Shown here: piece by piece, positions 7,913 to 54,987 of the stretch
Numbering within the stretch: position 1 is the stretch's first letter
Layout of the letters: the number at the start of each line of letters is the position of its first letter
Assembly (NCBI RefSeq): GCF_000183135.1
Contig: NC_014734.1
Location: forward strand, 1,302,001-1,366,000
DNA from: Paludibacter propionicigenes WB4
GTDB lineage: Bacteria; Bacteroidota; Bacteroidia; Bacteroidales; Paludibacteraceae
Reading direction: 5' to 3'
Length of the DNA: 64,000 nucleotides
Made by a program: the position numbers and the translations under genes
The notes under the pieces: model-generated
The model's input: only the letters and a program-made list of their open reading frames with translations
Database searches by the model: none
What the model was told of the DNA's origin: nothing

Positions 7913-7943
7913 TTCAGTGTATACTTTTTAGAAATTTATATTG

Positions 7944-8921
7944 TTAGTAATATCTAGGAGACAGAACCGGTCTATATTTCGGCAAATTAAACTCATATCT
8001 TAGCATTAGCTCGTGAGATCCTCCGACATTATATGTTTTGAGGCTTGAGATCGTGTAATCATAGGCATATCCGAGCCTGAGCGTAGGCGATAATTGAATT
8101 TCAAATAAACCCACTACAGCATTACCCGGTCGATAACTGACACCAAATCCAAGACTATTTTGAAACCAAGCATTCATATTGAAATCGAAAGCCGGAGCCG
8201 ATCCTTGAACAGCTTTGAGCAGAACCGATGGTTTCAACTTTATTTCACTTGAGACATCAAAAATATATCCTCCCGTAAAGAAATAGTGGTTATTAGCAGA
8301 GGTAGAATGTAATGTGTTATCTATGTCAACTTTAGTTTTTAAAAGAGCCGGAATGGAGAATCCTAAATACATCCTGTCTGCATTTAATAACATTCCGAAC
8401 CCCACGGTAGGTAAGATAATATTAATATCTTGAGCAAATAATGGATCATCTGGGCTTGAGGTAACTGCTTTTGAATAAGCTGCCTGATAGTTTAAAGCCC
8501 CACCACTTAATCCAAAAGTAAGAGTTGAGTATGCTAATTTAAGCCTATAGGAGTAAAATGCCTGAATACCGGTAGTTGTTTCAATTCCTAATTTATCGTT
8601 ATAAACCTGAAGTCCATAGCCAACATTGCTGTCAACACTTCGCCTATCCCAGGACAAAGTCCCTGTTTTTGGTGCGCCGTCAACACCAACCCACTGCATG
8701 CGGTATAAAAGTGTTATGTTATCACCTCCAAAATTACCTGCATAAGCCGGGTTCAGGTTTATCATATTGAACATGTATTGCGAATACATGGGTTCCTGTT
8801 GAGCCTGGAGCGAATTGCCCAAAAACAATAAACAGGAACTAAGTATAAATATGATTTTCGATAGCCTTAACTTATCCTGGAAGTAAGATATATATATGTA
8901 ATTCATTATTTTACAATTCAT
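7944..8921 (-). CDS. PorP/SprF-family T9SS outer-membrane protein
   Basis: This is an outer-membrane beta-barrel of the PorP/SprF family. In other Bacteroidota, SprF-like proteins are needed to secrete the type B sorting-domain cargo encoded beside them. The diagnostic N-terminus after signal cleavage is visible: QQEPMYSQYMFNMINLNPAYAG, followed by LLYRMQWVGVDGAP and beta strands ending in YEFNL. The signal peptide ends at LQAQ. The ATG at 8906 would give a shorter leader and is equally plausible. It sits between the cargo gene (upstream) and the PorE-like gene (downstream). Confidence 0.92.
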   Translation of the reverse strand: MNCKIMNYIYISYFQDKLRLSKIIFILSSCLLFLGNSLQAQQEPMYSQYMFNMINLNPAYAGNFGGDNITLLYRMQWVGVDGAPKTGTLSWDRRSVDSNVGYGLQVYNDKLGIETTTGIQAFYSYRLKLAYSTLTFGLSGGALNYQAAYSKAVTSSPDDPLFAQDINIILPTVGFGMLLNADRMYLGFSIPALLKTKVDIDNTLHSTSANNHYFFTGGYIFDVSSEIKLKPSVLLKAVQGSAPAFDFNMNAWFQNSLGFGVSYRPGNAVVGLFEIQLSPTLRLGYAYDYTISSLKTYNVGGSHELMLRYEFNLPKYRPVLSPRYY

Positions 8922-14194: not shown

Positions 14195-17100
14195 TTATTT
14201 TTTATTGGTTATTAATTTCTTTAATTCCTCCTGATTTATTTTAAGGAATTCAATTTCTTTTTTCAACAAATCAATTTCCTGATGTTGCGCTTCTATTTCG
14301 GCTTGTTGTGAAATAATGACGGCATCATGTTCCTGCCACCCTTTCAACAATGGAGCCGTCATAGCCTGATAATTGAGCGATAGTGTAGACATACTGTCTT
14401 TGGCAATCGTAACTAAATCTGGGAAATATTGCTGCACATTTTGAGCTATAAAACCTAATTGATGTATCTTTATATCTTTACGGTCGAATTCTACTGCATT
14501 AATTTTACGTAGGCTTTCAGATACGTTGGGTAAAGTCTGGATATTCTTTTTGAGGCGAATATCTGAATAGGCGGTAACATTTCCCCCTGCTGTAATTGAA
14601 CCTGAAACTACTGCATTTCCTGTGGCATTAACATAAAATACAGGAGCCGCTTGATTTCCAAAATGAAACCCTATTGCATCTCCAACTCCAACTAATGCCG
14701 TCCCTTGGTAGTATGACATGCCATAAGGTGTGGCAGATGCAAAACACCAAATATTATTTGCGGCATTGGCAACATATCCTGCACTTTGAAATCCAGCTCC
14801 AGTTCCAGATTTAACTATACCGGAAAAGGTTGCAGTTGTTCCACTTAAGGCTCCTGTTAAGGTTCCTCCAGAAAGAGGAAGATATGCACCGGCTGCAGCA
14901 GCAGTAGTTAAATAAGTAGCTGCATCCACACTGCCATCCGCTTTTAGAAACTGAGCGGAAGTACCTCCTGATTTGACAAAACCAGTAGAAGTCACTGTTG
15001 ATGAAAAGGTTTTTGCTCCTGCAAAAGTTTGAGTTGTTGCCGAAACCAATCCAGCTGAAGAAGCATCAGCTGTTTGCATATAGAGACTGTTCCCAGAAAT
15101 TACTGCACCGTTGGCAGCTTTAGTCTGACTATCGATGGTGCCAATAACATTCACATAAGTAGTCGGCGTTGTCCAGCTCAATGCTCCTGCAGTAGTACCT
15201 GATAGTACCTGTCCATTCACAGTAGGGCCTGCTGTGGGGAGTGTGTAACTGATATTCGCCGACTGTGAACCTGCTGTAAAAGATGTAGAATATGAATTTG
15301 AAGCATCGGTAAATGCCAATGTTTTTCCTGCCGCTAAAGTGGTATTTCCATTCAGGGAAATGTTTCCTGTTCCCGTACTGAAAGTACCAGATCCGCTTAT
15401 TGCAAAATTTCCTGAAGCTTGTGCGTAGCCTGTTATTCCCGAAAGAGCACCCGAGTTTACAATTAAACCATTCATCGTATTACCTGAAGTTGGAGCTGTA
15501 ATGGCCGAATTGAATGTTTTTGCTCCTGCAAAAGTTTGGGCTCCGGTATTGACTACCCCACGGGCAGATGTACCTGCATCGGGGATGTTCAGGGTAAGTG
15601 TTCCTCCAAGACTAGCCGGCGAACCAGATACATTCACATCGACTCCCGTAGTTCCTGTAGCCAGCGTGATACTTCCCAGATTGGCCGTATTTACATCTAT
15701 CGTCGGTTCTGTTGTTGTTCCACCTATTGTAACTTTTGTACTACCAGCTCCAACTGAAGTTACTTTATTGTTAAACGTAGTCCAGTTGCCGGATGACAAA
15801 TATCCATCAGTACTGTTGGTTGCCTGCGTTATTCCTATCGCACCTGTTCCACTGTCGTAAGTGATAGGTGCTGTGGCTGACAAAGCTGATAATGTCAGAA
15901 AGTTTGGTGTCCAGTTCACCCAGTTACTTCCGTCGTACTTTAATATGTTATTTGCACTAAGGCTCGTAATAGAAATGGCAGTTCCTTTCAATTTATCAAC
16001 ATTGGTCGCTCCTAAAGTACCTGAGATATCTCCCCCAACGGGAAGTGCAGATGACTGGAAATAAGAAGGAGCTGCAGAAGAACCTGTATTATTTCCAAAC
16101 AGCGTATTGGCACCTGCATTGGTCAAAGTATAAGAGATCGTTGGTGTAGAACCGGCATTAGCTACCGATGTACTAAAGAGTGGGGTCAGATTTCCCGACG
16201 AAACGGTTGTAACGGTTCCGTTATTGACAGTACTAATAACATCTCCGGTCATTTGAAGTCCGGCACCAACGGTTACACCACCCTTCACAGAAGCTGTGGC
16301 AGTGGGCAAAGTATATGTATAGTTAGGGATATTCAGTGTACCTCCAGAAAAAGTTGCTGCTCCCCCTGTTCCTGTAGTGGTAAGTGCAATGGCATTTTGC
16401 TTGTTATTAAAGGTAGTCCAATCATTAGAAGACAAATATCCATTCGTACTATTTGTTGCTTGCGAGATAGCAAAGACACCTGTCGCATTGTTGTATGTCA
16501 AAGGTGTAGTGGCCGATAAGGCTGTTCGGGCAATATAATTAGGAGTCCAGTTGACCCACCCGCTAGATGTGTATTTTAATAGATCTCCATCTGTCAGAGA
16601 AGAGAAAAGAAGAGAATTACCTTTCAATTTATTTACAGTAACTGCGCTCACTGTACCGGAAACATCTCCCCCAACAGGAATTCCGGCAGTCGATACAGAT
16701 GCAGCAGCAGTGATTCGACCTGTAGCATCCACTGTAAACTGAGGAATAGCAGCAACCGATCCGTATGATCCGGAATTAGGATTTACATCTTTCAGCGTTA
16801 GTATTCCATTATTGTCCAGCGTTGCATCTCCATCCATCAAAACAGCTGTAGCTATTCCTGAAGCATTTCCGACAAACATCCGTCCCGCAGCCAGTCCATT
16901 GGTTAATCCACTTGCCCAACTTAACGCACCCGTACCATCATTAACAAGCAACTGTCCACTTTGACCCTGATTTTCAGGTAGAATTAGTGTATAACTACTT
17001 AGCGATGCCGGAGCTTGTAAGCGCACTGATTCGGAAGATGCATTGATTAATTGCATATCTCCTTTGATGTCCAATGCTGATTGCGGATTATCAGTACCAA

Positions 17101-20100
17101 TCCCGACATTTCCGTCAGTTTTGATTGTCAATCCAGATCCCGGATTTGTATTTGCAGCAAAACGAGCCAACAAACCACTGGTTGACAGACCTGTATTTGC
17201 AACATATAATAGACCCTTAGTAGATGAGTTCAATGCAGAACTTGACGAACTTACTGAAAGCAAATTACCACTTGATAAGCTATTTCCGGCTATTGATTGT
17301 ACTGTCCCTGTAGTAGTAGAAGAAGATAATGAAAACAAGCTACCTGTATGTGCTGCATTGCTATTCGCTAAAGAGAAAAGGTTTCCCGATGTGGCAGCGT
17401 TCCAGTTCCATGTTTGGGTAAAGTTGCCATTATTGATAGAATTATTAGCTTTAGCATCAGTGAGTCCATTCAATGGCATTGCCGACGCAATAGGATAATC
17501 GAGCTGTAGGCGTTCTGTTGCAGTGGTAAAATATAGATGACTATTAGCATACTCCATGGCTCCTTCTTCAAGTACTGCAACTTTATTAGCACTGGTCGTA
17601 AACTTCAAAGGAGCCATACCACTCGCTGCACCACCTGCAGGCAGGTGTAAACGTGCTGCTGGACTGGCAACTCCGATACCTATACTTCCATTATTTGAAG
17701 CAGCTGTTGATGGATTTCCTGATGCTGAAGAATAAGTATTCTTGCCAAACAATACTCCACCAATATTAATACTGTTCTCAGTAGTAGCCGGTAAAGTAAT
17801 ATTGGTACCTATAATAATATTATTCTTACCAATGTGGTTGCCCGAAAGACCATCATTTCCAACATTATATCCAATTAATGTACTATACTGAGCAGATGAA
17901 GCATTGTACCCTGCGTTTTGCCCTATAAAATTGGAATTACGAGCCAAATTTGCATAATATCCGGCTCCTTCTCCTATGAAATTTGAGAAACTTGCACTGA
18001 TAGCCCCTAAACCAGCATTTTGGCCTAAGAAGTTGGATGAAGAAGCACTCGTTGCATCTGCTCCGGCTCCGTTACCTAAAAAGTTGGAGTAAGAAGCTCC
18101 TGTAGCATTTTGGCCTGCTTTTTCACCAAAGAAGTTGGATGAAAGACTACCTGTTACTCCGGAACCTGTACCTGGAAGTCCTGTAGAGAAAAGATTAGAT
18201 CCATTCACAATAGTAATAGGAGAGGCCAATGATTCCGTCCATTGGTTTCCATCCCAAACAAGCGTTACCGACATTCCAATAGGCAATGTACAGGATTTAA
18301 CTGATACGTAATTCGTAGAAGTACCTGAGTTGGCTATTGTAAACAAACGACCCGGTGTTTTATCTGTAGGCGCAGGTAAGGTTATAGCGACATCGTATGT
18401 ATCCTGCACAATCACTAAACCCGAATAGTTATCCACAGGATCACTATTACCCGGAATAAATGTCGGATCTGAGTTATTTACCACATTGAATCCTAAAACC
18501 GTAGAACCGGTATTGTGTAAAGTAGCTACCGGAGCCGAAGTACCTATTCCCACTTTGCCATTTGCCATTACAGTTAACCCTGAACCGGAAGTACTATTCG
18601 ATTGAATGCGCCCCACAGTACCATCGGTACTTGCAGAAGCGTTAGCCACATAAAGCAGACCGTTTGTAGAATTCAAAGAGCTACTTGACGAAGTTATACT
18701 TAATCCCGTTCCTTCAGTCAAAGAAGATGAAGATATATTAGCCAAAGTTCCGGTAGTTGCCGAATTGGCAGTGACATTGAACAATCCTGTACCGGTGTAT
18801 GCTCCCGTACCAGTAACGTCAAATGCACTTCCGGATGTCTTTGAGTTCGTAAAATCAAGAGCATAGTTTGCTTGTGTAACCGTACGGTTAGCTGTCAACG
18901 TTCCATTGGCAGTATAAATATTGGGTAAAGTGGTAGGATCCTTCCATGCCGGTGCAGCTGTTCCTGTAGAAATAAGGACATAACCGTTTGTTCCGGCTGA
19001 TGTAGCCTGCACTGCTCCTATTCCATTACCGTAAAGGATTCCATTACCGGTTAAACTATTTACTCCCGTACCACCGTTAGCTACCGGTAAAATTCCGGTC
19101 ACGTCACCCGATGCAAGATTAACTGACGAACTGGAAAGATTTCCTGAAGCATTACTATGAACAATTCCAGCAGTTAGATTAGATAAATTGGTAATATTTT
19201 GACTGGTATTCACACTTATAGTGCCGGATGCAGCCGAAAGTCCCGTACCGACTATAACACCTCCTAAAGTGCTGTTGGTTGCCGGGGTAACCGTCCACGT
19301 TTGGGCTGCACTTCCATCAAAATCGGAACCTGTCAAGCCTGTCCCTGCGGATAACTTATTCGGACTTACTGCTGTTATCGTTCCACTCGATCCTAAAGCT
19401 ATATCTGTACCATTCACGGTTACCTTACTATTGACCAAAGAAGAATTTGGGATGTTGGACGTTTCAATACTTGAACCTGAAAAGCTAAGGCCCGTTCCTA
19501 ATGTGATATTTTGTGCATTAGCCAATGAACCCGTAGCATTACCTATCAAAGAAGAACCAGCCACCTGTTGTAGTTTGGAATAGGTTACGGCATTCGAGCC
19601 TATAGTCAGTGCTGGCGATAAAGCTGTTGTGCCTGATGCGGTTCCGGTAATATCTCCCGAAGCTGTAAAAGTAATACTCTCATTGTTCTTCAGGTAGGCG
19701 GAGTTATCGTAAACAACATCTCCACTTCCATTTATTGTCACAAAACCGGTTCCCGTAGTGGTGCTTAATACACCTGCGCTGCTATTGGTAACCAATCCTT
19801 TGGAATTTAGACCGCTAACGGTAAGACCACTGAATGTGGGGCTGCTTGTTGAAGCTATACTTTGAGGCAAACTGAGTGTTACATCTCCTGTCGAAGATGA
19901 AGCTATCACTTGATCAGTGGTTCCTGTGATAGTAGTTACAGGAGTGGTTGCTCCAACTAACTGACCATTAGTATTGGTGGCTATATAAGATGCTGATGCT
20001 GGGACTGAACCGCTGTTTATCTGATTTGCATTCCAATAAGCACCGGTGTTTAGAATAGTGGCAGTCGTTCCACTGGTGGATACAGCGGCAGGAGTGCTGC

Positions 20101-23100
20101 CGGTTACCGAACCTATTTTATCATTAAATGTTTTCCAGTCTGTAGAAATCAATGCGCCTCGTTGACTGGAAGAGGCATCTGGCAGATTAAAGGTGTGAGT
20201 ACTTCCTGATGACTGTACATTAAAATCGGTTCCACTAGTACCCGTTGAGATTGTCTGACTGGCATTAGTTAACCCGTTGATGGATGTGATATAACTACTG
20301 GTATCAAACAACCAGTTCGTTCCGTTATATTTTAAATAACCTGAAGAAAATCCGCTTGGAAGATAGGGTACTTTCGTATCATCTACCGTCCACGTCCGAG
20401 CTGCACTTCCGTCAAAATCGGAACCTGTCAAGCCTGTCCCTGCGGATAACTTATTCGGACTGACTGCTGTTATCGTTCCACTCGATCCTAAAGCTATATC
20501 TGTACCATTCACGGTTACCTTACTATTGACCAACGAAGAATTTGGGATGTTGGAAGTTTCAAGACTTGAGCCTGAAAAGCCAAGGCCTGTTCCCAAAGTG
20601 ATATTTTGTGCATCAGCTGATGAACCCGTAGCATTACCTACCAAAGAAGAGGCAGCCACCTGTTGTAATTTGGAATAGGTTACGGCATTCGATCCTATGG
20701 TTAATGCCGGTGATAAAGATGTGGTACCCGATGTGCTCCCTGTAATATCTCCCGAAGCTGCAAAAGTAATACTCTCATTGTTCTTCAGGTAGGCGGAGTT
20801 ATCGTAAACCACGTCTCCACTCCCATTTATTGTCACAAAACCGGTGCCGGTAGTGGTGCTTAATACGCCTGTGCTACTATTGCTAACCAATCCTTTGGCA
20901 TTTAGACCGCTAACGGTAAGACCACTGAAAGTGGGGCTGCTTGTTGTGGCTATACTTTGAGGCAAACTGAGTGTTACATCTCCTGTCGAAGAGGAAGCTA
21001 TCACCTGATCTGTAGTGCCTGTGATAGTAGTTACAGGAGTGGTTGCTCCAACTAACTGACCAGTGGCATTAGTAGCTATGTAAGACATTGATAATGGTAC
21101 TGAACCGCTGTTTATCTGATTTGCATTCCAGTAAGCTGCGGTATTCTGAATAGTAGCAGTTGTACCACTGGTGGATACAGCGCCAGGAGTACTGGCTGTT
21201 ACTGAACCGATCTTATCATTAAAAGTGGTCCAGTCTGTAGAAGTCAATGCGCCTCGTTGACTGGAAGAGGCATCTGGCAGATTAAAGGTGTGAGTACTTC
21301 CTAATGACTGTACATTAAAATCGGTTCCATTAGTACCTGTTGATATCGTCTGGTTTGCATTAGTTAACCCGTTGATGGATGTGATATAACTACTGGTATC
21401 AAACAACCAGTTCGTTCCGTTATATTTCAGATAACCCGAAGAAAATCCGCTTGGAAGATAGGGTATTTTCGTATCATCTACCGACCAGGTCCTAGCTGCA
21501 CTTCCATCAAAATCGGAACCTGTTAATCCTGTTCCTGCAGATAACTTATTCGGACTTACAGCTGTTATCGTTCCACTTGATCCTAAGGCTATATCTGTAC
21601 CATTAACGGTTACCTTACTATTGATCAACGAAGAATTTGGGATGTTGAAAGTTTCAAGATTTGAACCTGAAAAGCTAAGGCCTGTTCCTAATGTGATATT
21701 TTGTGCATTAGCTGATGAACCCGTAGCATTACCTACCAAAGAAGAGGCAGCCACCTGTTGTAATTTGGAATAGGTTACGGCATTCGATCCTATGGTTAGT
21801 GCAGGTGATAAGGATGTGATACCTGATGCGGTTCCTGTAATATCTCCCGAAGCTGTAAAAGTAATACTCTCATTGTTCTTCAGGTAATTGGAGTTATCGT
21901 AAACCACGTCTCCACTCCCATTTATTGTCACAAAACCGGTGCCGGTAGTGGTGCTTAATACGCCTGTGCTATTATTGGTAACCAATCCTTTGGAATTTAG
22001 ACCGCTAACGGTAAGACCACTGAAAGTGGGGCTGCTTGTTGTTGCTATACTTTGAGGCAAACTGAGTGTTACATCTCCTGTCGAAGAAGAAGCTATCACC
22101 TGATCAGTGGTTCCTGTGATAGTAGTTACAGGAGTGGTTGCTCCAACTAACTGACCAGCAGCATTGGTGGCTATGTAAGATGCCGATACTGGAACTGAAC
22201 CGCTGTTTATCTGATTTGCATTCCAATAAGCATCGGTATTTAGAATAGTAGCAGTAGTTCCACTGGTGGATACTGCGGCTGGAGTGCTGGCGGTTACTGA
22301 ACCGATTTTATCATTGAAAGTTGTCCAATCGGTATTGGATAATTTTCCTGTGTTGCTCGCCGAAGCTAAAGGGATATTCAAGGTAAGAGTCCCACCTAGA
22401 TTCGCAGGTAAACCGCCTACATTTACATCTGTGCCCGTGACACCGGTCTGAAGAGTAACAGTACCTAAATCGGATGTATTTACATCTACTGTTGGGGCAG
22501 TACTTGTTCCGCCGATAACTACTTTGCTGCTTCCTGCACTTACTGACCCTACTTTATCGTTAAATGTTTTCCAGTCTGTAGAAGTCAATGCTCCTCGTTG
22601 ACCTGAAGAGGCATCTGGCAGATTAAAGGTGTGAGTACTTCCTGATGACTGTACATTAAAATCGGTTCCACTAGTACCTGTTGATATCGTCTGGTTTGTA
22701 TTAGCTAACCCGTTGATGGATGTGATGTAACTACTGGTATCAAACAACCAGTTCGTTCCGTTATATTTCAGATAACCCGAAGAAAATCCGCTTGGAAGAT
22801 AGGGAATCTTAGTATCGTCTACCGACCAGGTCTTAGCTGCACTTCCATCAAAATCCAAACCCGTCAAACCTGTCCCTGCGGATAGCTTCTCTCGGCTTAG
22901 TGCTGAGGCACTTATTTCACGGAGCAAACCTGTTCCGGGAGCAACAACCAACAAATTGTCTGCTTTTGCATCGCCTGTTTGCAATCCTGTAACCGACAAA
23001 GTATTTGTCTGAGAAGTTTCTATGGTTGTTGGTTTTGTTAATAATCCTCCTAACTGAACATTACCATTAATATGAGTAAGCCCGTTATCTGCAGACACTA

Positions 23101-23611
23101 ATAATGGTATACCCGGAGAACTTGCAACCCCGTTTATAGTGGAAATAAGAATTCCGTTTACAACAGATAAATTGTTATTCTTAATAATATCCTCACCTAA
23201 AGATGTCACACCATTTACAGTCGTAACAAGACTATTCCCTGTAATTGTATTTGAAACTTGAGTTGAACCAGCTATGAGCGAAGTTAATTCCGCCGTATTT
23301 ACCACCCTAACCCAACGAGAGCTTACTATATCCCAATAATATAACCCTTTAGGGGCTTCACCTTTCTCATTGAACACTAACATTCCACTCACAGGAGAGC
23401 CATCCAAAGGACTCCATGAATTTATATCGTCAAGCACAATTCTTGAAATGCGCAATCCCTTTGTCATACTTTCCAATTCAAGCAAAGATCCATCTTGAAT
23501 TACAGTCGGATTATTTCCAATCTTGTTCTGAGCAGACACAGGTAGAACAAAAGATCCCAACGCAATCATTAACAAAAAGAAATGTCGCTCTTTTAAAACT
23601 TTATAAATCAT
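14195..23611 (-). CDS. Giant repeat surface protein with C-terminal Peptidase_S74 chaperone domain
   Basis: The 3138-residue exported protein has a signal peptide ending at VSAQ. Residues about 240-1440 hold near-identical modules of about 365 residues (see the repeat entry). Residues about 1815-1925 carry YadA-head-like repeats (SNFLGNGAGADA, SNFIGQNAGYNA), and VGIGTSAPVATLH-type segments occur twice. The C-terminus (about 3015-3138) is an intramolecular chaperone, Peptidase_S74: YSDIRLKKNIQTLP ... LGFIAQNVQQYFPDLV ... LNYQAMTAPLL, ending in a coiled coil. S74 domains of phage tail spikes trimerise and then cut themselves off, so a trimeric fibre is likely. I see no T9SS sorting domain. It is the first gene of a three-gene operon. 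Confidence 0.85.
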   Translation of the reverse strand: MIYKVLKERHFFLLMIALGSFVLPVSAQNKIGNNPTVIQDGSLLELESMTKGLRISRIVLDDINSWSPLDGSPVSGMLVFNEKGEAPKGLYYWDIVSSRWVRVVNTAELTSLIAGSTQVSNTITGNSLVTTVNGVTSLGEDIIKNNNLSVVNGILISTINGVASSPGIPLLVSADNGLTHINGNVQLGGLLTKPTTIETSQTNTLSVTGLQTGDAKADNLLVVAPGTGLLREISASALSREKLSAGTGLTGLDFDGSAAKTWSVDDTKIPYLPSGFSSGYLKYNGTNWLFDTSSYITSINGLANTNQTISTGTSGTDFNVQSSGSTHTFNLPDASSGQRGALTSTDWKTFNDKVGSVSAGSSKVVIGGTSTAPTVDVNTSDLGTVTLQTGVTGTDVNVGGLPANLGGTLTLNIPLASASNTGKLSNTDWTTFNDKIGSVTASTPAAVSTSGTTATILNTDAYWNANQINSGSVPVSASYIATNAAGQLVGATTPVTTITGTTDQVIASSSTGDVTLSLPQSIATTSSPTFSGLTVSGLNSKGLVTNNSTGVLSTTTGTGFVTINGSGDVVYDNSNYLKNNESITFTASGDITGTASGITSLSPALTIGSNAVTYSKLQQVAASSLVGNATGSSANAQNITLGTGLSFSGSNLETFNIPNSSLINSKVTVNGTDIALGSSGTITAVSPNKLSAGTGLTGSDFDGSAARTWSVDDTKIPYLPSGFSSGYLKYNGTNWLFDTSSYITSINGLTNANQTISTGTNGTDFNVQSLGSTHTFNLPDASSSQRGALTSTDWTTFNDKIGSVTASTPGAVSTSGTTATIQNTAAYWNANQINSGSVPLSMSYIATNATGQLVGATTPVTTITGTTDQVIASSSTGDVTLSLPQSIATTSSPTFSGLTVSGLNAKGLVSNSSTGVLSTTTGTGFVTINGSGDVVYDNSAYLKNNESITFAASGDITGSTSGTTSLSPALTIGSNAVTYSKLQQVAASSLVGNATGSSADAQNITLGTGLGFSGSSLETSNIPNSSLVNSKVTVNGTDIALGSSGTITAVSPNKLSAGTGLTGSDFDGSAARTWTVDDTKVPYLPSGFSSGYLKYNGTNWLFDTSSYITSINGLTNASQTISTGTSGTDFNVQSSGSTHTFNLPDASSSQRGALISTDWKTFNDKIGSVTGSTPAAVSTSGTTATILNTGAYWNANQINSGSVPASASYIATNTNGQLVGATTPVTTITGTTDQVIASSSTGDVTLSLPQSIASTSSPTFSGLTVSGLNSKGLVTNSSAGVLSTTTGTGFVTINGSGDVVYDNSAYLKNNESITFTASGDITGTASGTTALSPALTIGSNAVTYSKLQQVAGSSLIGNATGSLANAQNITLGTGLSFSGSSIETSNIPNSSLVNSKVTVNGTDIALGSSGTITAVSPNKLSAGTGLTGSDFDGSAAQTWTVTPATNSTLGGVIVGTGLSAASGTISVNTSQNITNLSNLTAGIVHSNASGNLSSSSVNLASGDVTGILPVANGGTGVNSLTGNGILYGNGIGAVQATSAGTNGYVLISTGTAAPAWKDPTTLPNIYTANGTLTANRTVTQANYALDFTNSKTSGSAFDVTGTGAYTGTGLFNVTANSATTGTLANISSSSLTEGTGLSITSSSSSLNSTNGLLYVANASASTDGTVGRIQSNSTSGSGLTVMANGKVGIGTSAPVATLHNTGSTVLGFNVVNNSDPTFIPGNSDPVDNYSGLVIVQDTYDVAITLPAPTDKTPGRLFTIANSGTSTNYVSVKSCTLPIGMSVTLVWDGNQWTESLASPITIVNGSNLFSTGLPGTGSGVTGSLSSNFFGEKAGQNATGASYSNFLGNGAGADATSASSSNFLGQNAGLGAISASFSNFIGEGAGYYANLARNSNFIGQNAGYNASSAQYSTLIGYNVGNDGLSGNHIGKNNIIIGTNITLPATTENSINIGGVLFGKNTYSSASGNPSTAASNNGSIGIGVASPAARLHLPAGGAASGMAPLKFTTSANKVAVLEEGAMEYANSHLYFTTATERLQLDYPIASAMPLNGLTDAKANNSINNGNFTQTWNWNAATSGNLFSLANSNAAHTGSLFSLSSSTTTGTVQSIAGNSLSSGNLLSVSSSSSALNSSTKGLLYVANTGLSTSGLLARFAANTNPGSGLTIKTDGNVGIGTDNPQSALDIKGDMQLINASSESVRLQAPASLSSYTLILPENQGQSGQLLVNDGTGALSWASGLTNGLAAGRMFVGNASGIATAVLMDGDATLDNNGILTLKDVNPNSGSYGSVAAIPQFTVDATGRITAAASVSTAGIPVGGDVSGTVSAVTVNKLKGNSLLFSSLTDGDLLKYTSSGWVNWTPNYIARTALSATTPLTYNNATGVFAISQATNSTNGYLSSNDWTTFNNKQNAIALTTTGTGGAATFSGGTLNIPNYTYTLPTATASVKGGVTVGAGLQMTGDVISTVNNGTVTTVSSGNLTPLFSTSVANAGSTPTISYTLTNAGANTLFGNNTGSSAAPSYFQSSALPVGGDISGTLGATNVDKLKGTAISITSLSANNILKYDGSNWVNWTPNFLTLSALSATAPITYDSGTGAIGITQATNSTDGYLSSGNWTTFNNKVTSVGAGSTKVTIGGTTTEPTIDVNTANLGSITLATGTTGVDVNVSGSPASLGGTLTLNIPDAGTSARGVVNTGAQTFAGAKTFNSAITAPTSGNTMNGLIVNSGALSGITGYAQASGNFAISGSGTFSTGTGNISLNGNTTLAAGKTLAFTDASNSYSTSFTAGSQSANISYTLPTAGPTVNGQVLSGTTAGALSWTTPTTYVNVIGTIDSQTKAANGAVISGNSLYMQTADASSAGLVSATTQTFAGAKTFSSTVTSTGFVKSGGTSAQFLKADGSVDAATYLTTAAAAGAYLPLSGGTLTGALSGTTATFSGIVKSGTGAGFQSAGYVANAANNIWCFASATPYGMSYYQGTALVGVGDAIGFHFGNQAAPVFYVNATGNAVVSGSITAGGNVTAYSDIRLKKNIQTLPNVSESLRKINAVEFDRKDIKIHQLGFIAQNVQQYFPDLVTIAKDSMSTLSLNYQAMTAPLLKGWQEHDAVIISQQAEIEAQHQEIDLLKKEIEFLKINQEELKKLITNKK
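19290..22905 (-). repeat. Near-identical long tandem modules inside the giant S74 gene
   Basis: The segment encoding KLSAGTGLTG ... SGFSSGYLKYNGTNW ... SINGL recurs. The AACCCGTTGA landmark is at 20271, 21366 and 22707, i.e. 1095 bp (365 codons) between two copies and 1341 bp (447 codons) to the third. The 82 extra codons of the long copy form one inserted block (VVIGGTSTAPTVDVNTSDLG and following). A fourth, truncated copy begins near 19370. Copies differ by scattered silent and conservative changes, as expected from recent duplication or gene conversion. Confidence 0.9.
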
Positions 23612-30148: not shown

Positions 30149-30178
30149 ACGCCCGGAAGATTTTCCGGGCGTTTTTTG
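30149..30178 (+). terminator. Intrinsic terminator of dapL
   Basis: A perfect 10-bp GC-rich stem (ACGCCCGGAA, 30149-30158, with 30163-30172) has loop GATT and a T run. The same stem-loop recurs at 31757-31787 after the next gene. Confidence 0.92.
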
Positions 30179-30200: not shown

Positions 30201-30560
30201 TGATTGATGAGAGATGATGGGTGATTGATGAGCGATGACTAGTGATTGATGAGCTCTGTCAGGTGATTGATGAGCGCTGACGGATGATTGATGAGCACTG
30301 ATGGGTGATTGATGAGCGCTGACGGGTGATTGATGAACGCTGTCGGGTGATTGATGAACGCTGTCGGGTGATTGATGAGCGATGACGGATAATTGATGAG
30401 CACTGATGGGTGATTGATGAGCGCTGACGAGTGATTGTTGAACGCTGTCGGGTGATTGATGAGCGATGACGGATGATTGATGAGGACTGATGGGTGATTG
30501 ATGAGCACTGATGGGTGATTGATGAGCGATGACGGGTGATTGATGAGCGTTGATGGGTGA
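30201..30560. repeat. 21-bp tandem repeat array (about 17 copies)
   Basis: The core TGATTGATGA recurs exactly every 21 bp: 30201, 30222, 30243, 30264, 30285, 30306, 30327 and on to about 30537. The consensus is TGATTGATGAGCGNTGANGGG. Copies vary mainly at positions 13-19. The minus strand stays open because 21 is a multiple of three (it would read LINHPSA repeatedly), but it has no coding context. The array begins just after the dapL terminator and ends about 200 bp before the ATG of the helical-protein gene at 30761. Confidence 0.95.
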
Positions 30561-30674
30561 TTGGCTGGTTTTGGCTAGTTATTACAAAATAACATCTATC
30601 AATTTAATGTGCTTGAGTTAAATATTATTAAGATTATTTTTCATTTTATCGAAATTTACTTATGTATATTTTTA

Positions 30675-30682
30675 TAAATTTG
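30675..30682 (+). promoter_or_regulatory. Putative -7 box (TAAATTTG) between the 21-bp array and its gene
   Basis: TAAATTTG lies 78 bp before the ATG at 30761 and about 115 bp after the array. The same octamer sits in the matching place in front of the paralogue at 52437. Confidence 0.5.
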
Positions 30683-30760
30683 CATTTACATTGTTTCAAA
30701 TAAACCTGTAAATAATGTAATCAATCAACTAATTTATTCATTAATCAAAATTTATCTATC

Positions 30761-31705
30761 ATGAATGCAAAACAACAAAGCAAGTACAACATGTATTTGA
30801 CAACTGTTGAGTTCCTGAACGCAAACAACTCAATTACAATGCTTCTACCGAGGTATCAGGAGTTCTATGGTACATTTCAGAATGGCATTTCTCAAATCCG
30901 ATCGTCGAACGAACAACAAAGTATTGACAAGTCCGGGATAGCAAGTAACAAAAAACAACTCCGGAAGTTGCTAGTAAAACTAGGCGCTGACACTTCGCGC
31001 AAAATTCAGTCATACGCAAAAATTGAAAATAATCAGATTCTGCTTAATGAAGCGAAGTTTACTGAAAGTGACTTTAAAAATGCCTCGGATAGCGACCTTG
31101 AAACTTTTGCTCAGAGTACCTACGATACAGCACAAAAGCAGCTTGGGAATTTGGCGCAATATGGTGTAACCAATGAGACTCAGAATGATCTTATGAGAGC
31201 ACTTACCGACTTTAGAGCAGCTATGCCTACGCCCCGAAACGGTGCAATCGGGACTAAACTAAGTACAGAACAACTTACAAAATCTTTTACCGCAACAGAT
31301 AAAGCATTGGATAATATTGATGCATTGGTGGAAATAGTGAGAATTTCGCAACCAGAGTTTTATAGCGGTTATAAATCGGCACGAAAAATAATAGACACAG
31401 CAGCCGGCTCACTTCAGTTAAAAGGCTTTGTGACTGATGCCGGTACGGGAGAAGGACTTAAAGGTGCAACCGTTAGTTTTGAACTAAATAATAACAGCAA
31501 TGGACTGCTTAAGGCCAAAGCAAGCGGCGGCGAAAGCGTAAAGAAAAAGACAGCGGATAAGGGTGGGTTTAATATTAAATCGCTACCGGAGGGTACATAC
31601 TCGGCCACTGTGAGCAAAAATGGTTATGCCGATGTGGTAACGACAATAGCTATTACAAACGGCGAATTGGCGGTACTTAACGTAGAGCTAGTAAAGAACA
31701 TTTAA
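30761..31705 (+). CDS. Unrecognised helical protein with C-terminal CarboxypepD_reg-like domain (array-linked family)
   Basis: The protein has 314 residues with no signal peptide. Residues about 1-215 are predicted helical and polar, ending with SQPEFYSGYKSARKIID. The remainder (about 222-314) is a single beta-sandwich module of the carboxypeptidase-regulatory type: LQLKGFVTDAGTGEGLKGATV, GGFNIKSLPEGTYSATVSKNGY. The helical part is clearly related to the protein at 52437-53126 (shared PEFYxxYKxAxxxI ending, GIxxxKxxL and IxSYA segments), which lacks the beta domain. Both genes follow a tandem array with a period near 21 bp. I recognise no characterised family, and function is unknown. The lack of a signal peptide is odd for a CarboxypepD_reg module. 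Confidence 0.75.
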   Translation: MNAKQQSKYNMYLTTVEFLNANNSITMLLPRYQEFYGTFQNGISQIRSSNEQQSIDKSGIASNKKQLRKLLVKLGADTSRKIQSYAKIENNQILLNEAKFTESDFKNASDSDLETFAQSTYDTAQKQLGNLAQYGVTNETQNDLMRALTDFRAAMPTPRNGAIGTKLSTEQLTKSFTATDKALDNIDALVEIVRISQPEFYSGYKSARKIIDTAAGSLQLKGFVTDAGTGEGLKGATVSFELNNNSNGLLKAKASGGESVKKKTADKGGFNIKSLPEGTYSATVSKNGYADVVTTIAITNGELAVLNVELVKNI

Positions 31706-31756: not shown

Positions 31757-31787
31757 ACGCCCGGAAGATTTTCCGGGCGTTTTTTTT
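31757..31787 (+). terminator. Intrinsic terminator, copy of the dapL terminator
   Basis: The same ACGCCCGGAA stem with GATT loop as at 30149 (31757-31766 with 31771-31780), followed by eight Ts. It closes the array-linked gene. The following stretch to 32150 is AT-rich with no gene seen. Confidence 0.92.
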
Positions 31788-50119: not shown

Positions 50120-50147
50120 GCAAAAAATAATGTAGGTTCACAACCGC

Positions 50148-50200
50148 TACCGAGCAGCGGCTCCAGACGCTTGCCGGTTGAAAAGCAGAAAAGCTCAAAA
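50148..50200. repeat. Dispersed repeat, short copy
   Basis: TACCGAGCAGCGGCT and GACGCTTGCCGGTTGAAAAG recur at 51620 and 52132, where the repeat extends to about 110 bp. This copy keeps only the first 53 bp. It lies in an intergenic stretch without genes (50046-50567). Confidence 0.8.
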
Positions 50201-51597: not shown

Positions 51598-52131
51598 AGC
51601 TCGACAACCGTATAATCTGATACCGTACCGAGCAGCGGCTTTAGACGCTTGCCGGTTGAAAAGCAGAATGCTCAAAGATCTACGCTACAAGCGGCATATA
51701 GCCGCTGATAGCGTTGAGCCGTCTCGACAACCACGAAAGCATCTCGACAATCGTATAAGCCATCTTTACAACCGCAAAAGCATCTCGACAAATGTATAAG
51801 CCATCTCAACAACCGCGAAAGCATCTCGACAAATGTATAAGCCGTCTCGACAACCGCGAAAGCATCTCGACAATCGTATAAGCCATCTTTACAACCGCGA
51901 AACCGTCTCGAAAACCGTATAAGGCATCTCAACAACCGCGAAACCATCTCGACAACCGTATAAGCCATCTCGACAACCGCGAAACCATCTCGACAACCGT
52001 ATAAGCCATCTCGACAAACGCGAAACCATCTCGACAAACGCATAAGCCATCTTTACAACCGCGAAGCCATCTCGACAAACGTATAAGTCATCTTTACAAC
52101 CGCGAAAGCATCTCGACAAACGTATAAGCTA
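51598..52131. repeat. Tandem repeat array of alternating 20/21-bp units (41-bp composite)
   Basis: Units alternate between TCTCGACAACCGCGAAAGCA (20 bp) and TCTCGACAATCGTATAAGCCA-like (21 bp), giving a 41-bp composite repeated about ten times from 51721 to 52131. A leading half-unit lies at 51598-51614. Copies differ at a few fixed positions (TCTTTACAA for TCTCGACAA; AAACG for AACCG). The array is bracketed by about 110-bp direct repeats and lies about 190 bp before the helical-protein gene at 52437. Its sequence is unrelated to the 21-bp array at 30201. Confidence 0.93.
51620..51732. repeat. Direct repeat flanking the array, left copy
   Basis: About 110 bp running from ATACCGTACCGAGCAGCGG through a small hairpin (GCGGCATATAGCCGC) to CTCGACAACC. 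It is nearly identical to 52132-52245, and its first half also occurs at 50148. Confidence 0.9.
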
Positions 52132-52245
52132 ATACCGTACCGGGCAGCGGCTTCAGACGCTTGCCGGTTGAAAAGCAGAAGGGCTCAAAGATCTACGCTA
52201 CAAGCGGCTTATAGCCGCTGATAGCGTTGAGGCAGCTCGACAACC
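52132..52245. repeat. Direct repeat flanking the array, right copy
   Basis: This matches the left copy with few changes (GGGCAGCGGCTTCAG, GCGGCTTATAGCCGC). The last bases CTCGACAACC equal the array core, so array and flanking repeat share an edge. Confidence 0.9.
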
Positions 52246-52321: not shown

Positions 52322-52350
52322 TTTGTTATAATTAAACAGCATTAAATTTG
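52322..52350 (+). promoter_or_regulatory. Putative promoter between the array and its gene
   Basis: TTTG at 52322-52325 and TAAATTTG at 52343-52350 form a -33/-7 pair with a short (17-bp) spacer. The same TAAATTTG octamer precedes the paralogous gene at 30761. A second -7-like TATATTTG lies at 52371-52378. Confidence 0.5.
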
Positions 52351-52436: not shown

Positions 52437-53126
52437 ATGAACAATTACCAAAAAGCCAGGCACAGCTCTAACAAAGAAATCGTAATCGTGGCCGAAAACA
52501 ATCAGTCCGCAACGGGCCTTATTCCATCTTTTGCCAGAGGAATAGAACAATTAAAAAGTATCAACGCCGAAATCGACGAGTTGACAGTGCAGCAAAGCCA
52601 GAACCTCACCGGTATTACCGATGACAAAAACGATGTACTGGACGAAACCTCCGACTATCTGATCGATATTTCGGGAGCCATTCACTCCTACGCCGAACGG
52701 CTGGGCAACAAGACCCTGCAAGCGCAGGTTAACTTCAAACCTGCAAAAGTAGAACATCTGGACCGCCACGAAATTATCGACGCGTGCGTCAACGTGCTCA
52801 ACGAAGCACGCAAGATAGCACCCAACGAACTGGCAGACGAAGGTATCAGCTACGAGGAACTTAATCATTTCGACGAACTGATTACGCGGCTGAAAGGCTA
52901 CAGCAACACACGCCAAACAGCAGGGATAGACCAAAAAGACATCACGCGCCGCATTGGCGGACTGATCACCAAAGCCGTCGACCTTAAGAGAAACACCCTC
53001 GACCGCCTCGCACCACAGTTCCAACGCAAAGCACCCGAGTTTTACAACAAGTACAAAACAGCCGCTAACGTGATATACCGCCGCGCCGCTAAAAAAACCG
53101 ACACAAAACCCGAGGCCAAAGCCTAA
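52437..53126 (+). CDS. Unrecognised helical protein (array-linked family, short form)
   Basis: The 229-residue protein is predicted all-helical and highly polar, without signal peptide or membrane segment. It shares layout and segments with residues 1-215 of the protein at 30761: LIPSFARGIEQL, GITDDKNDVL, GAIHSYAERL, and above all APEFYNKYKTAANVIYR against QPEFYSGYKSARKIID. The tail is Lys-rich (RRAAKKTDTKPEAKA) where the longer paralogue carries a beta-sandwich domain. I recognise no named family. Lack of export signals suggests a cytoplasmic role, perhaps nucleic-acid or protein binding, but nothing in the sequence proves it. Confidence 0.75.
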   Translation: MNNYQKARHSSNKEIVIVAENNQSATGLIPSFARGIEQLKSINAEIDELTVQQSQNLTGITDDKNDVLDETSDYLIDISGAIHSYAERLGNKTLQAQVNFKPAKVEHLDRHEIIDACVNVLNEARKIAPNELADEGISYEELNHFDELITRLKGYSNTRQTAGIDQKDITRRIGGLITKAVDLKRNTLDRLAPQFQRKAPEFYNKYKTAANVIYRRAAKKTDTKPEAKA

Positions 53127-53136
53127 TGAAAACAGG

Positions 53137-53180
53137 AACTTTCTCCATCCGGGAAATACCGGATGGGGAAAGTTTTTTTT
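53137..53180 (+). terminator. Intrinsic terminator of the array-linked gene
   Basis: AACTTTCTCCATCCGG (53137-53152) pairs with 53159-53174, with one imperfect position, and is followed by eight Ts. Confidence 0.92.
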
Positions 53181-53379
53181 ATATGATTTACAAAGCAGAA
53201 CCTTGTTTCTAACACGACCTAGACTGGAGACTAGGCAAAACGAAGAATTATGGAAAGAACAATGGAAAAATTGATTTGTGCACAACTAAACCTGATTATC
53301 AAAACTTATTTACTACTATATTCATTTGAAAAAAGAAATAGTATTTGGAAGTGGTTATATAAACAATAACAATGAAGAA

Positions 53380-54987
53380 ATGAAAAATAGAGAAGAAATA
53401 TTGATTGAATTAAATAGACTTTCATCATCTCGAGATTTTTTAGAAATCCTTTTAATATTAAGCAATACACATTTGAATTGTACTGCTAATAAATTGGCAA
53501 CAAGAGATGTAAAAAGTATCCTAAATGAGAATGAAATAGTATTTCTTTTTGGTTTGTGGGCAAAGAATAAAAATAAAAATACAGAGGGGTTTGTTGACAA
53601 GCAAGAGATATCGAAAAGAGTTCATGAATTAATGAACGAATATCATCAGACTTACATACCTGATATTAGTATCTTTAATACGACTAAGACTTTTAATGAA
53701 ATAGCTAGAAACAATCCTGACATGATAAAAGAAAGTATATTTTACTCTGGCACAGGAGCCTATGATTATCAATTGATTACTTTTTTGGATGACAAATATA
53801 ACTTAGATAAAGAATGGTTGAAACAGAATAAAGGGTTTATAATAAAAGAAGCTCAAAAACTATTTATATACATAAAATCGACGTTTATATACAAACTAAA
53901 TTCTAAAAAATTCAACGATAATGTAATTGAATTATATACAATAAGAAAAGACAATTACATTTTTAAAAAGAATCCTTCGTTTATTTTTTTATTAAACCTG
54001 CTTTCATTTAAGATGGATGAAAGTTTAAATGAAGAATTTAACGATATTGGAGATTTAAATCATTTTAAATTCCGTCCTGTAATTAATACTGATTCAAAAT
54101 TTATAATTCCATTACCTAACTTATTATCAGAATCTATTTATGATGGCCCATTTTATTGGATGAATGATGATGAAAAATATCTAAGTACAGCAGCTAAAAA
54201 TAGAGGAAAATCTGCTGAAAATATCGTAAAATCTATACTTGAAAGAAAGATCCCAAATGAAAATATATTTCTTGAGGTAAATGTAAATGTGACAAAAAAC
54301 GAAACACTTACTGATTTGGATGTTTGTGTTATAAATGGAAATAAAATGTTGATTTTCCAAGTGAAATCTAAAAGGTTGACTCAGTTGTCCAAAAAAGGTG
54401 ACATTGAAGGATTTCATAAAGATTTCAAACTAGCTATTCAAGATGCAAATGATCAAGCAACAAAACCAATAGAATTAATAATTTCAAATTCATGTAAACT
54501 AAAATCAATGTTATCTGGAGAAAATATTGATTGTGAAAAAATAGACGAAATACATACGGCTTGTATTGTCTTAGATAGTTATCCTGCAATCACAACACAT
54601 ACTAGAATGTTTTTTTTCGATGAGGAAAAAACTCCAGTAACAATGAGTATTTTTGATCTAGAACTTCTAATCGAGTACATCAAGGATTTTGATATGCTCT
54701 TCGATTATATAAAAAAGAGAGAAGAGTTTTCCAAATACTTTATTGCAGAAACTGAATTATCTTTTTTTTCGAAATACATTAAATCTGGTTTGATTAAATC
54801 ATCAAACGCAGATATAGAAATATTGGATAATGATTTTGCCCAAAGATTTGATTATGATTATTATGTACCACTTACTCTAAAATTTCAGAAAGAATTTTCA
54901 ACTTATATAAAAGATATTGGAAGAAATGACTTTTGTTTTTGTGGAAGTGGAAAGAAATATAAAAAATGTTGTTCTGAAAAATGTTAG
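53380..54987 (+). CDS. Putative PD-(D/E)XK nuclease-like protein with C-terminal SEC-C motif
   Basis: The protein has 535 residues from the ATG at 53380; a TTG at 53326 would add 18 residues. The first 260 residues are helical and unassigned. A restriction-endonuclease-like core follows: Glu280 in GKSAENIVKSIL, Asp314 in LTDLDVCV, and Gln327/Lys329 in LIFQVKSKRL. This is the E...D...QxK pattern of PD-(D/E)XK/NERD-type nucleases. The last 20 residues are a SEC-C zinc motif (GRNDFCFCGSGKKYKKCC). It is clearly more AT-rich than its neighbours, suggesting transfer. A defence role is plausible but inferred. Confidence 0.65.
   Translation: MKNREEILIELNRLSSSRDFLEILLILSNTHLNCTANKLATRDVKSILNENEIVFLFGLWAKNKNKNTEGFVDKQEISKRVHELMNEYHQTYIPDISIFNTTKTFNEIARNNPDMIKESIFYSGTGAYDYQLITFLDDKYNLDKEWLKQNKGFIIKEAQKLFIYIKSTFIYKLNSKKFNDNVIELYTIRKDNYIFKKNPSFIFLLNLLSFKMDESLNEEFNDIGDLNHFKFRPVINTDSKFIIPLPNLLSESIYDGPFYWMNDDEKYLSTAAKNRGKSAENIVKSILERKIPNENIFLEVNVNVTKNETLTDLDVCVINGNKMLIFQVKSKRLTQLSKKGDIEGFHKDFKLAIQDANDQATKPIELIISNSCKLKSMLSGENIDCEKIDEIHTACIVLDSYPAITTHTRMFFFDEEKTPVTMSIFDLELLIEYIKDFDMLFDYIKKREEFSKYFIAETELSFFSKYIKSGLIKSSNADIEILDNDFAQRFDYDYYVPLTLKFQKEFSTYIKDIGRNDFCFCGSGKKYKKCCSEKC

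Follow-up and report, generated by a model that had tools for sequence, protein, structure and literature searches.

Genes of four protein families in Paludibacter propionicigenes WB4 and in other bacteria are usually preceded by tandem repeat arrays with a spacing of about 21 bp, the repeat unit differing in sequence from gene to gene. The pairing of gene and array is established for all four families, and the spacing is conserved across the four and, in one of them (family C), across two phyla. This pairing points to an undescribed system of protein acting on DNA.

Two array loci in the window

The window analysed was a stretch of 64,000 bases (1302001–1366000) from a single-contig genome of 3,685,504 bp. 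It contains two loci in which an array lies upstream of a gene of one protein family (family A), with the following features.

30149–30177, plus strand: dapL terminator, copy one of the ~29-bp direct repeat on either side of the module of array and gene (read in the sequence)
30201–30563, no strand: array 1, 21-bp unit in 17.3 copies (TRF; shuffles)
30675–30682, plus strand: TAAATTTG box between array 1 and the P0001 ATG
30761–31705, plus strand: family-A gene P0001, 314 aa, a helical N-terminal part and a CarboxypepD_reg C-terminal domain
31757–31785, plus strand: terminator, second copy of the ~29-bp direct repeat
50143–50199, no strand: a lone, incomplete copy of the hairpin element found on both sides of array 2 (blastn, 91% over 57 bp)
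51610–51725, no strand: hairpin-containing REP-like element, copy 1
51717–52129, no strand: array 2, 41-bp unit (2 × 20.5) in 10.1 copies (TRF)
52122–52231, no strand: REP-like element, copy 2, 94% identical to copy 1
52343–52350, plus strand: TAAATTTG box between array 2 and the P0002 ATG
52437–53126, plus strand: family-A gene for P0002 (229 aa), predicted to be helical throughout and matching no Pfam family over cut-off
53138–53179, plus strand: terminator-like hairpin and T run after P0002 (by eye)

Array 1 had been described beforehand as about 17 copies of a 21-bp unit at 30201–30560. TRF recovered it at 30201–30563 with period 21, 17.3 copies, 84% matches, no indels and a score of 481, and its best 84-bp window showed 0.92 identity at lag 21. 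The parallel locus proposed at 51.6–53.2 kb was also confirmed. Array 2 had a period of 41 bp, made up of two sub-units of 20–21 bp, with 10.1 copies, 89% matches and a score of 595, and reached 0.96 identity at lag 41 in its best 84-bp window. Both arrays lie far beyond shuffled sequence, for which the maximum was 0.56 in each case (500 mononucleotide shuffles, 59 lags). TRF also reported period 7 for array 1 and for some other 21-bp arrays (21 = 3 × 7), and long arrays of 7-bp repeats (ACAGTGA, AGGAGTA) occur elsewhere in the genome, at 11278–12786 of L078.

The two genes belong to one protein family, as had been claimed, with 25% identity and a BLASTP E of 6e-11 in a single comparison; the helical part of P0001 was assigned through this relation. 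The octamer reported for both loci, TAAATTTG, which we take to be a Bacteroidota -7-type promoter box, was found at 30675 and 52343, at -86 and -94 from the respective ATGs. A spacer of about 190–200 bp had been given for the second locus, as part of a layout repeated from the first. The distance is 197 bp between array 1 and its gene; for array 2 it is 307 bp from the repeat end, or 205 bp when measured from where the copied flank stops, at 52231.

The flanks of the two modules are themselves repeated. The 22-bp dapL terminator stem, CGCCCGGAAGATTTTCCGGGCG, occurs on both sides of the P0001 module, at 30150 and 31758, and no copy of the stem was found in a genome sample of 60 stretches of 20 kb (1.2 Mb, 33% of the genome). 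Array 2 has on each side a copy of a ~110-bp hairpin-containing element, in direct-repeat orientation and absent from the earlier description. In the 1.2-Mb sample these elements recur only near an orphan array (one not preceding a family gene), L082, and a REP-transposase-like gene (L082/L171), for which the NCBIfam score was 45.2 bits against a cut-off of 80, with no Pfam match at 0.001. The bounding hairpins and the orphan copy beside such a gene may point to REP/RAYT systems, a comparison that concerns only how array 2 may have spread.

The dapL loci of seven relatives were compared with that of array 1. The same downstream gene is kept beside dapL, without a family gene, in three of them (L182, L183, L185). 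No 21-bp array was present at the site in L182 or L183 (the gap in L183 was read from blastn rows). L185, from a congener, carries at the site of the P0001 module a short 21-bp array of 7-bp sub-units, ~17–143 bases after dapL, and no family gene. Three loci had other neighbours at dapL (L181, L186, L187), and L184 was cut by a contig end. A dapL site without the family gene in relatives fits either gain here or loss there.

Arrays upstream of four protein families

Upstream regions were scored by a lag test, defined as identity at lag k in an 84-bp window within 700 bp upstream, with a threshold of 0.55 at lags 20–22 or 41–43. Family A has five members in the genome, all five with a TRF array upstream of period 20–22 or near a multiple. 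Members were found in 6 of 101 genomes sampled from the taxonomic family, giving 17 loci with the five above included. All 16 loci with enough upstream sequence had a period-21-type array by TRF, and 15 of these passed the lag test; the exception, L015, failed because its 21-bp array lies further upstream. Two loci cut by contig ends, L017 (~200 bp upstream) and the DUF6261 locus L119, were left out of the lag counts; TRF found an array of 42-bp period at L119. Upstream of one family-A gene (L002, ~1160–1460), two near-identical stretches of ~125 bp with CCCCTTTAGGGG-type words lie between array and gene, by eye.

Family B is DUF6261 (PF19775), with 11 genes in the genome, all matching over the Pfam cut-off. 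A TRF array of period 41–42 was found upstream of 10 of the 11; at L093 the best lag was 41, at 0.58. The family was present in 15 of 149 Bacteroidales genomes, the present one included, and TRF arrays of period 41–43 occurred at 18 of 27 newly fetched loci. Among loci with a correct start (L119 dropped), 34 of 37 passed the lag test at 0.55 and 30 at 0.60, L115 being a weak, AT-rich case among the passes at 0.55.

Family C comprises helical proteins with an fn3-like part, ending in GPWS. All three full genes in the genome have arrays; two further rows were excluded, L100 (24% identity, one stop) and L101 (E 0.066). A scan of one genome per species (84,980 species) yielded 39 loci. The lag set held the 38 of 42 loci, the three above included, that had at least 300 bp upstream (L150, L155, L156 and L157 were skipped). 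At 0.55, 28 of 38 passed. Bacteroidota contributed 27 of these, out of 29 loci, and the nine loci from other groups contributed one, from a Verrucomicrobium (L159). Counting lag 63 added L130, bringing the Bacteroidota to 28 of 29. No 21-bp array was present at the other eight non-Bacteroidota loci, seven of them Planctomycete or cyanobacterial-bin and one a Limisphaerales fragment hit. Two loci counted as array-less carry other repeats: L166, where the match is a 44-residue fragment, has an 83-bp repeat in 2.8 copies upstream, beyond the lag range, and L161 passes at lag 63 with what is, by eye, a two-copy duplication. The skipped Tannerella forsythia member, L156, has a 21-bp TRF repeat in 2.8 copies at 100% within its 182 bp of upstream sequence. 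By eye, the array-less Phycisphaerales and cyanobacterial-bin loci L158, L162 and L164 have in common a GC-rich stretch of ~110 bp before the start codon.

Family D is helical with an fn3-like part by our own reading and has no Pfam match over cut-off. It was matched in 3 of 247 genomes of the phylum, at five loci, four of which have periods of the 21/42/63/84 type; the fifth, L178, is a doubtful match without an array. By these genome counts families A, B and D are sparse. A 42-bp-period repeat of 2.7 copies also lies directly downstream of a family-D gene (L026, 14680–14794) and is unlike the upstream family arrays with which it was compared. With homologues keeping their arrays at these rates, the earlier proposal that array and protein probably form one unit is supported. 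In the genome sample, 5 of the 17 arrays with listed neighbours precede small proteins of further families (DUF6261, helix plus fn3).

Control regions

Upstream regions of control genes in the same genome passed far less often, 27 of 307 at 0.55. At 0.60 the number was 23, of which six proved to be family genes (L044 6835, L064 1686, L068 13470, L080 14968, L081 5095 and L083 1533), leaving 17 passes among 301 controls not recognised as such. Some of the other passing controls have an intergenic region in common with a family gene, or are two controls with one array between them. In other genomes, at 0.60 and with lag 63 included, 24 of 26 family-C genes passed, versus 2 of 75 controls; two divergent neighbours, both passing, had been set aside. 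By coordinates, both passing controls overlap a family array: the first has its intergenic stretch in common with the family gene, and the second falls inside that stretch. Downstream of family genes, 1 of 88 regions passed (L090, with 7-bp repeats; L017 and L119 left out). The preliminary description had asked whether 21-bp arrays are equally common before unrelated genes. They are rarer there, but the comparison is not a clean one: orphan arrays exist, some with the unit of one family gene and others with none of these units.

Repeat units and orphan arrays

Among the 22 family arrays of the genome, the highest similarity in 231 pairs was 0.09. The earlier statement that the repeat sequences are unrelated therefore holds for these 22 arrays; it does not hold for close relatives in other genomes. 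The units of the two window arrays had no match in the genomes of eight relatives. Searches of the genome itself with array 1, and with a query containing array 2, recovered the queries and orphans.

Sixteen arrays not preceding a family gene were compared with the family arrays (L068_up was excluded, being the DUF6261 gene L086 itself). Six of these orphans resemble one family array each, at 0.22–0.98, with second-best values of 0.03–0.16. From the genome sample, L082 (0.93) and L053 (0.22, the weakest case) resemble the P0002 array, L032_12599 (0.63) a family-D array and L036_6557 (0.36) a family-C array. The remaining two came from directed searches, L172 (0.98, P0002) and L169 (0.59, P0001), so that the six are not an unbiased count. 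The other 10 of the 16 had no clear partner among the family arrays (best at most 0.16). Orphan copies were 98–517 bp long, and L169 sits between two 3' ends. In L032, at 7741–8104, two orphan 21-bp arrays with different units and no clear partner adjoin each other, between a helicase-like ORF (by eye) and a 257-aa ORF.

Units were more alike where the proteins were more identical in family C (rho 0.52, 0 of 2000 permutations); in family A the trend was weak (rho 0.24, 36 of 2000), and in DUF6261 there was none (rho 0.016, 802 of 2000). Shared descent alone could explain the correlation in C and A. Of the 8 array gaps in the four closest family-C pairs, 4 measured exactly 21 or 42 bp; none of the 3 spacer gaps did. 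Over 13 pairs, multiples of 21 accounted for 6 of 132 array gaps, 0 of 55 spacer gaps and 1 of 101 gaps upstream; nine of these pairs were judged too diverged for good alignment, and the reading of indels is based on the four closest. Array indel rates, at 1.2–1.6%, were not clearly different from the 2.7% in 17 other tandem arrays.

Period, symmetry and promoter position

The median fundamental period was 21.00 bp in family A (n = 16), 20.73 bp in B (n = 32) and 21.00 bp in C (n = 26; interquartile 20.95–21.00), in a scan limited to 19.5–22.5 bp. A length of 21 bp corresponds to two turns of B-DNA. Many arrays are 60–85% identical from unit to unit (60% matches in L010/L025), and the degenerate arrays still hold the 21-bp register. 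A 10.5-bp A/T-dinucleotide harmonic was not dominant in A or C and had the second largest share in B; phased A-tract bending was rejected as the rule on the result for A and C. Coding sequence was rejected as well, since periods of 41, 43 and 61 are not multiples of three.

Dyad symmetry at p ≤ 0.05 against column-permuted nulls was found in 24 of 32 arrays of family B, 18 of 28 of C and 2 of 16 of A. Consensus stems had centres of 0–2 nt in 12 of 20 cases in C (three of the 12 from one array) and 10 of 32 in B. Such centres leave no room for an RNA loop. If the stems were selected to pair as RNA, G.T mismatches should outnumber A.C mismatches in them, and the ratios were 61:68 and 51:53 in B (two choices of stem) and 15:33 in C, so there is no bias of the kind expected of single-stranded RNA. 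DUF6261 arrays contain many short inverted repeats spaced 20–21 or 41–42, with 13 compensatory changes versus 226 breaks. From the dyads and the lack of a G.U excess in B and C we infer a preference for double-stranded DNA over RNA as the form in which these arrays would act. The structured-RNA/protein pair put forward earlier is disfavoured by the same stem centres and the same lack of G.U excess, and RNA hairpins were rejected as the main reading for the DUF6261 and C arrays. Over gathering cut-offs, Rfam gave only a tRNA in the window and nothing at the window arrays.

The TAnnTTTG box, presumably a promoter element, was found between array and ATG at 12 of 16 loci in family A (two of them distant, at -329 and -513), 5 of 32 in B and 0 of 29 in C. 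From -240 to -60 of the array start, there were 14 sense versus 4 antisense boxes in B and 12 versus 1 in C. Judged by these boxes, the arrays probably lie upstream of the promoter in A and within the transcribed leader in B and C. One simple promoter mechanism is disfavoured because the order of box and array differs between families.

Properties of the proteins

No DNA-binding domain was found over cut-off in Pfam or NCBIfam, which sets these loci apart from a classical autoregulated operator array, where such a domain would be recognisable. The pI was below 7 in 15 of 16 family-A proteins (helical part) and 26 of 31 B proteins, and above 7 in 8 of 16 full C proteins. P0002 was predicted to fold into long helices (pLDDT 81) and DUF6261 into helical bundles (pLDDT 96). 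Fold comparisons returned generic helical matches and exclude nothing; this includes the helical bimodular sensor domain (McpS, PilJ, TorS; two stacked helical bundles), against which DUF6261 was set. Profile comparison gave no significant homology between families A, B and C. Searches by sequence found no solved relatives for A and C; for DUF6261 they gave seven rows, the best (E 1.5e-8) to designed helical chains.

PHROGs and PADLOC gave nothing significant. Defence genes were rejected on weak PADLOC rows (best E 0.0016), and phage origin on weak PHROGs rows, with no relative confirmed in two viral-contig scans, of family C and P0002. The one openly licensed PubMed Central paper found to name DUF6261 was PMC10376253.

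A candidate DNA platform and its rivals

A double-stranded platform of some kind is probable. The fuller reading, held tentatively and at slightly under even confidence, is a gene-private platform, phased at two turns, with the adjacent gene's product as its likeliest binder. Binding by that product, taken as a step alone, is possible, at a confidence well below even. Tandem sites two helical turns apart would align numerous molecules of one binder along a single face of the DNA before the gene, with a conserved spacing and letters specific to each gene. The sites in B and C would mostly be inverted repeats, or dimer sites, lying in the transcribed leader if the boxes are a guide; those in A would be direct repeats that for the most part lie before the promoter box. 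The product may act both on the array in front of its gene and on orphans elsewhere that have the same unit, and its binding might set its own expression, assemble an ordered nucleoprotein structure, or both.

Several results weigh against the platform with its neighbour as binder. The mostly acidic character of the A and B proteins, without a recognised DNA-binding domain, counts against the protein as binder. The predicted helical folds with their generic matches, the DUF6261 units that do not track protein identity, the array-less C loci outside Bacteroidota, the orphans without partners and the few compensatory changes also weigh against this reading. Simple promoter control does not explain everything, given the orphan between two 3' ends and the varying position of the promoter. 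A more specific form of the platform, in which many paralogues each have an orthogonal address phased at 21.0 bp on which that protein alone polymerises, with orphans as docking sites, seems unlikely. If true, it would describe parallel self-addressed nucleoprotein systems, separated by unit sequence and held to one helix geometry.

The strongest rival holds that the array is a cis element with phased repeats, recognised by a host factor or through DNA shape (by bending, by buffering supercoils, or by recruiting polymerase or a nucleoid protein), the neighbouring protein not being the binder. We regard it as rather unlikely. It would accommodate the acidic A and B proteins lacking a recognised domain, the fixed spacing with free letters, the independence of DUF6261 units from protein identity, and arrays on either side of the promoter box. 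However, a general factor has no need of gene-private units, dyads or orphans that copy one gene's unit, and the lack of a dominant 10.5-bp harmonic in A and C (in B it has the second largest share) means that simple phased A-tracts are not the rule.

It is improbable that the arrays are spreading, slipping minisatellites, partly mobilised by REP/RAYT elements and merely tolerated before these genes. The orphan copies, the REP-like elements that bound array 2 and recur beside an orphan copy and the REP-transposase-like gene, the passes among non-family controls and the unremarkable indel rates all agree with such spreading. Placement upstream and hardly ever downstream does not, nor does a single period with differing letters, the dyads in B and C, or the register kept by degenerate arrays.

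Quite improbable, too, is action as RNA, in which the protein would bind a transcribed series of hairpins or repeats serving as scaffold, attenuator or leader control. The boxes 60–240 bp upstream of the array start in B and C, which would put the array in the leader, and the closely spaced inverted repeats of DUF6261 arrays speak for it. The stems speak against it, with no G.U excess and, in C, frequent 0–2-nt centres, as do the box mostly lying between array and gene in A, the 14 of 16 A arrays without dyads, and the lack of an Rfam family over cut-off at the window arrays. A contingency locus, in which slippage changes repeat number and so tunes or switches expression, is highly improbable: close relatives do differ by whole units (21, 42 bp), but the divergence between units in many arrays should slow slippage, and the families do not follow any one logic of reading frame or promoter spacer.

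If the proteins do bind their arrays, one genome would hold about twenty orthogonal protein–DNA pairs with unknown DNA-recognition folds, allowing a direct test of array–protein co-evolution. Even without binding, the fixed two-turn spacing before these genes calls for explanation, and DUF6261 and its companion families gain from the array pairing a first handle on function.

Comparison with known systems

The window arrays are head-to-tail units without spacers, in keeping with the initial judgement that they are not CRISPR. BrickBuilt of Porphyromonas gingivalis is a MITE that carries a single 23-nt tandem repeat sequence and has spread within that one species (PMC4596501). It resembles the present arrays in being an intergenic tandem repeat of Bacteroidales with a similar unit size, and one BrickBuilt element consists of repeats alone; the portion of that paper covered names no linked protein family (PMC4596501). 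In contrast, units here differ per gene and each array is tied to its gene. The 22 family arrays do not have one repeat in common, their similarity being at most 0.09.

TIGR-Tas loci also place a tandem array beside one compact-protein gene, with locus-specific repeats and, in some clades, palindromic units, but have dual spacers, box C/D-type motifs and a Nop-domain protein in the account covered (PMC12045711). The window units, by contrast, are near-copies of one another. By sequence profile, none of 34 DUF6261 proteins and none of 36 family-A proteins matched a Nop family at E ≤ 0.01, and there was no match at E ≤ 1 in 12 Pfam scans. The box C/D motif letters are CTGA and TGATGA, and 0 of 76 arrays had both in at least half of their units on either strand. 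Guide spacers were not seen either, the window arrays matching head to tail at 84% and 89%; some other arrays are more variable (L010/L025, 60%). Guides of the TIGR type were rejected for want of a Nop domain and of box C/D.

In plasmid centromere and iteron arrays such as ParR-parC, tandem sites in helical phase lie upstream of the gene whose product binds them. Their periods are shorter and their proteins of ribbon-helix-helix or winged-helix type, whereas the present arrays are chromosomal, with many paralogues per genome and no ribbon-helix-helix or winged-helix domain found. The TAACTGA heptamer repeats of Beggiatoaceae, Cyanobacteria and Bacteroidetes are likewise intergenic direct repeats upstream of genes, and P. 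propionicigenes WB4 is mentioned in that study (PMC4679880). They differ in having a fixed 7-bp word, a proposed translational role and, in the parts of the study covered, no dedicated neighbouring protein family (PMC4679880). No known kind that we could name or find has the features tested here; in openly licensed PubMed Central, no description was found of a gene class with a private upstream repeat, conserved in spacing and free in its letters, across four families, and an earlier description may exist beyond that collection.

Two minor observations concern the rest of the window. The minus strand carries an ORF of 3138 aa at 14195–23611, and a 21-bp repeat of two copies occurs at 54193–54234, within the ORF at 53326–54987.
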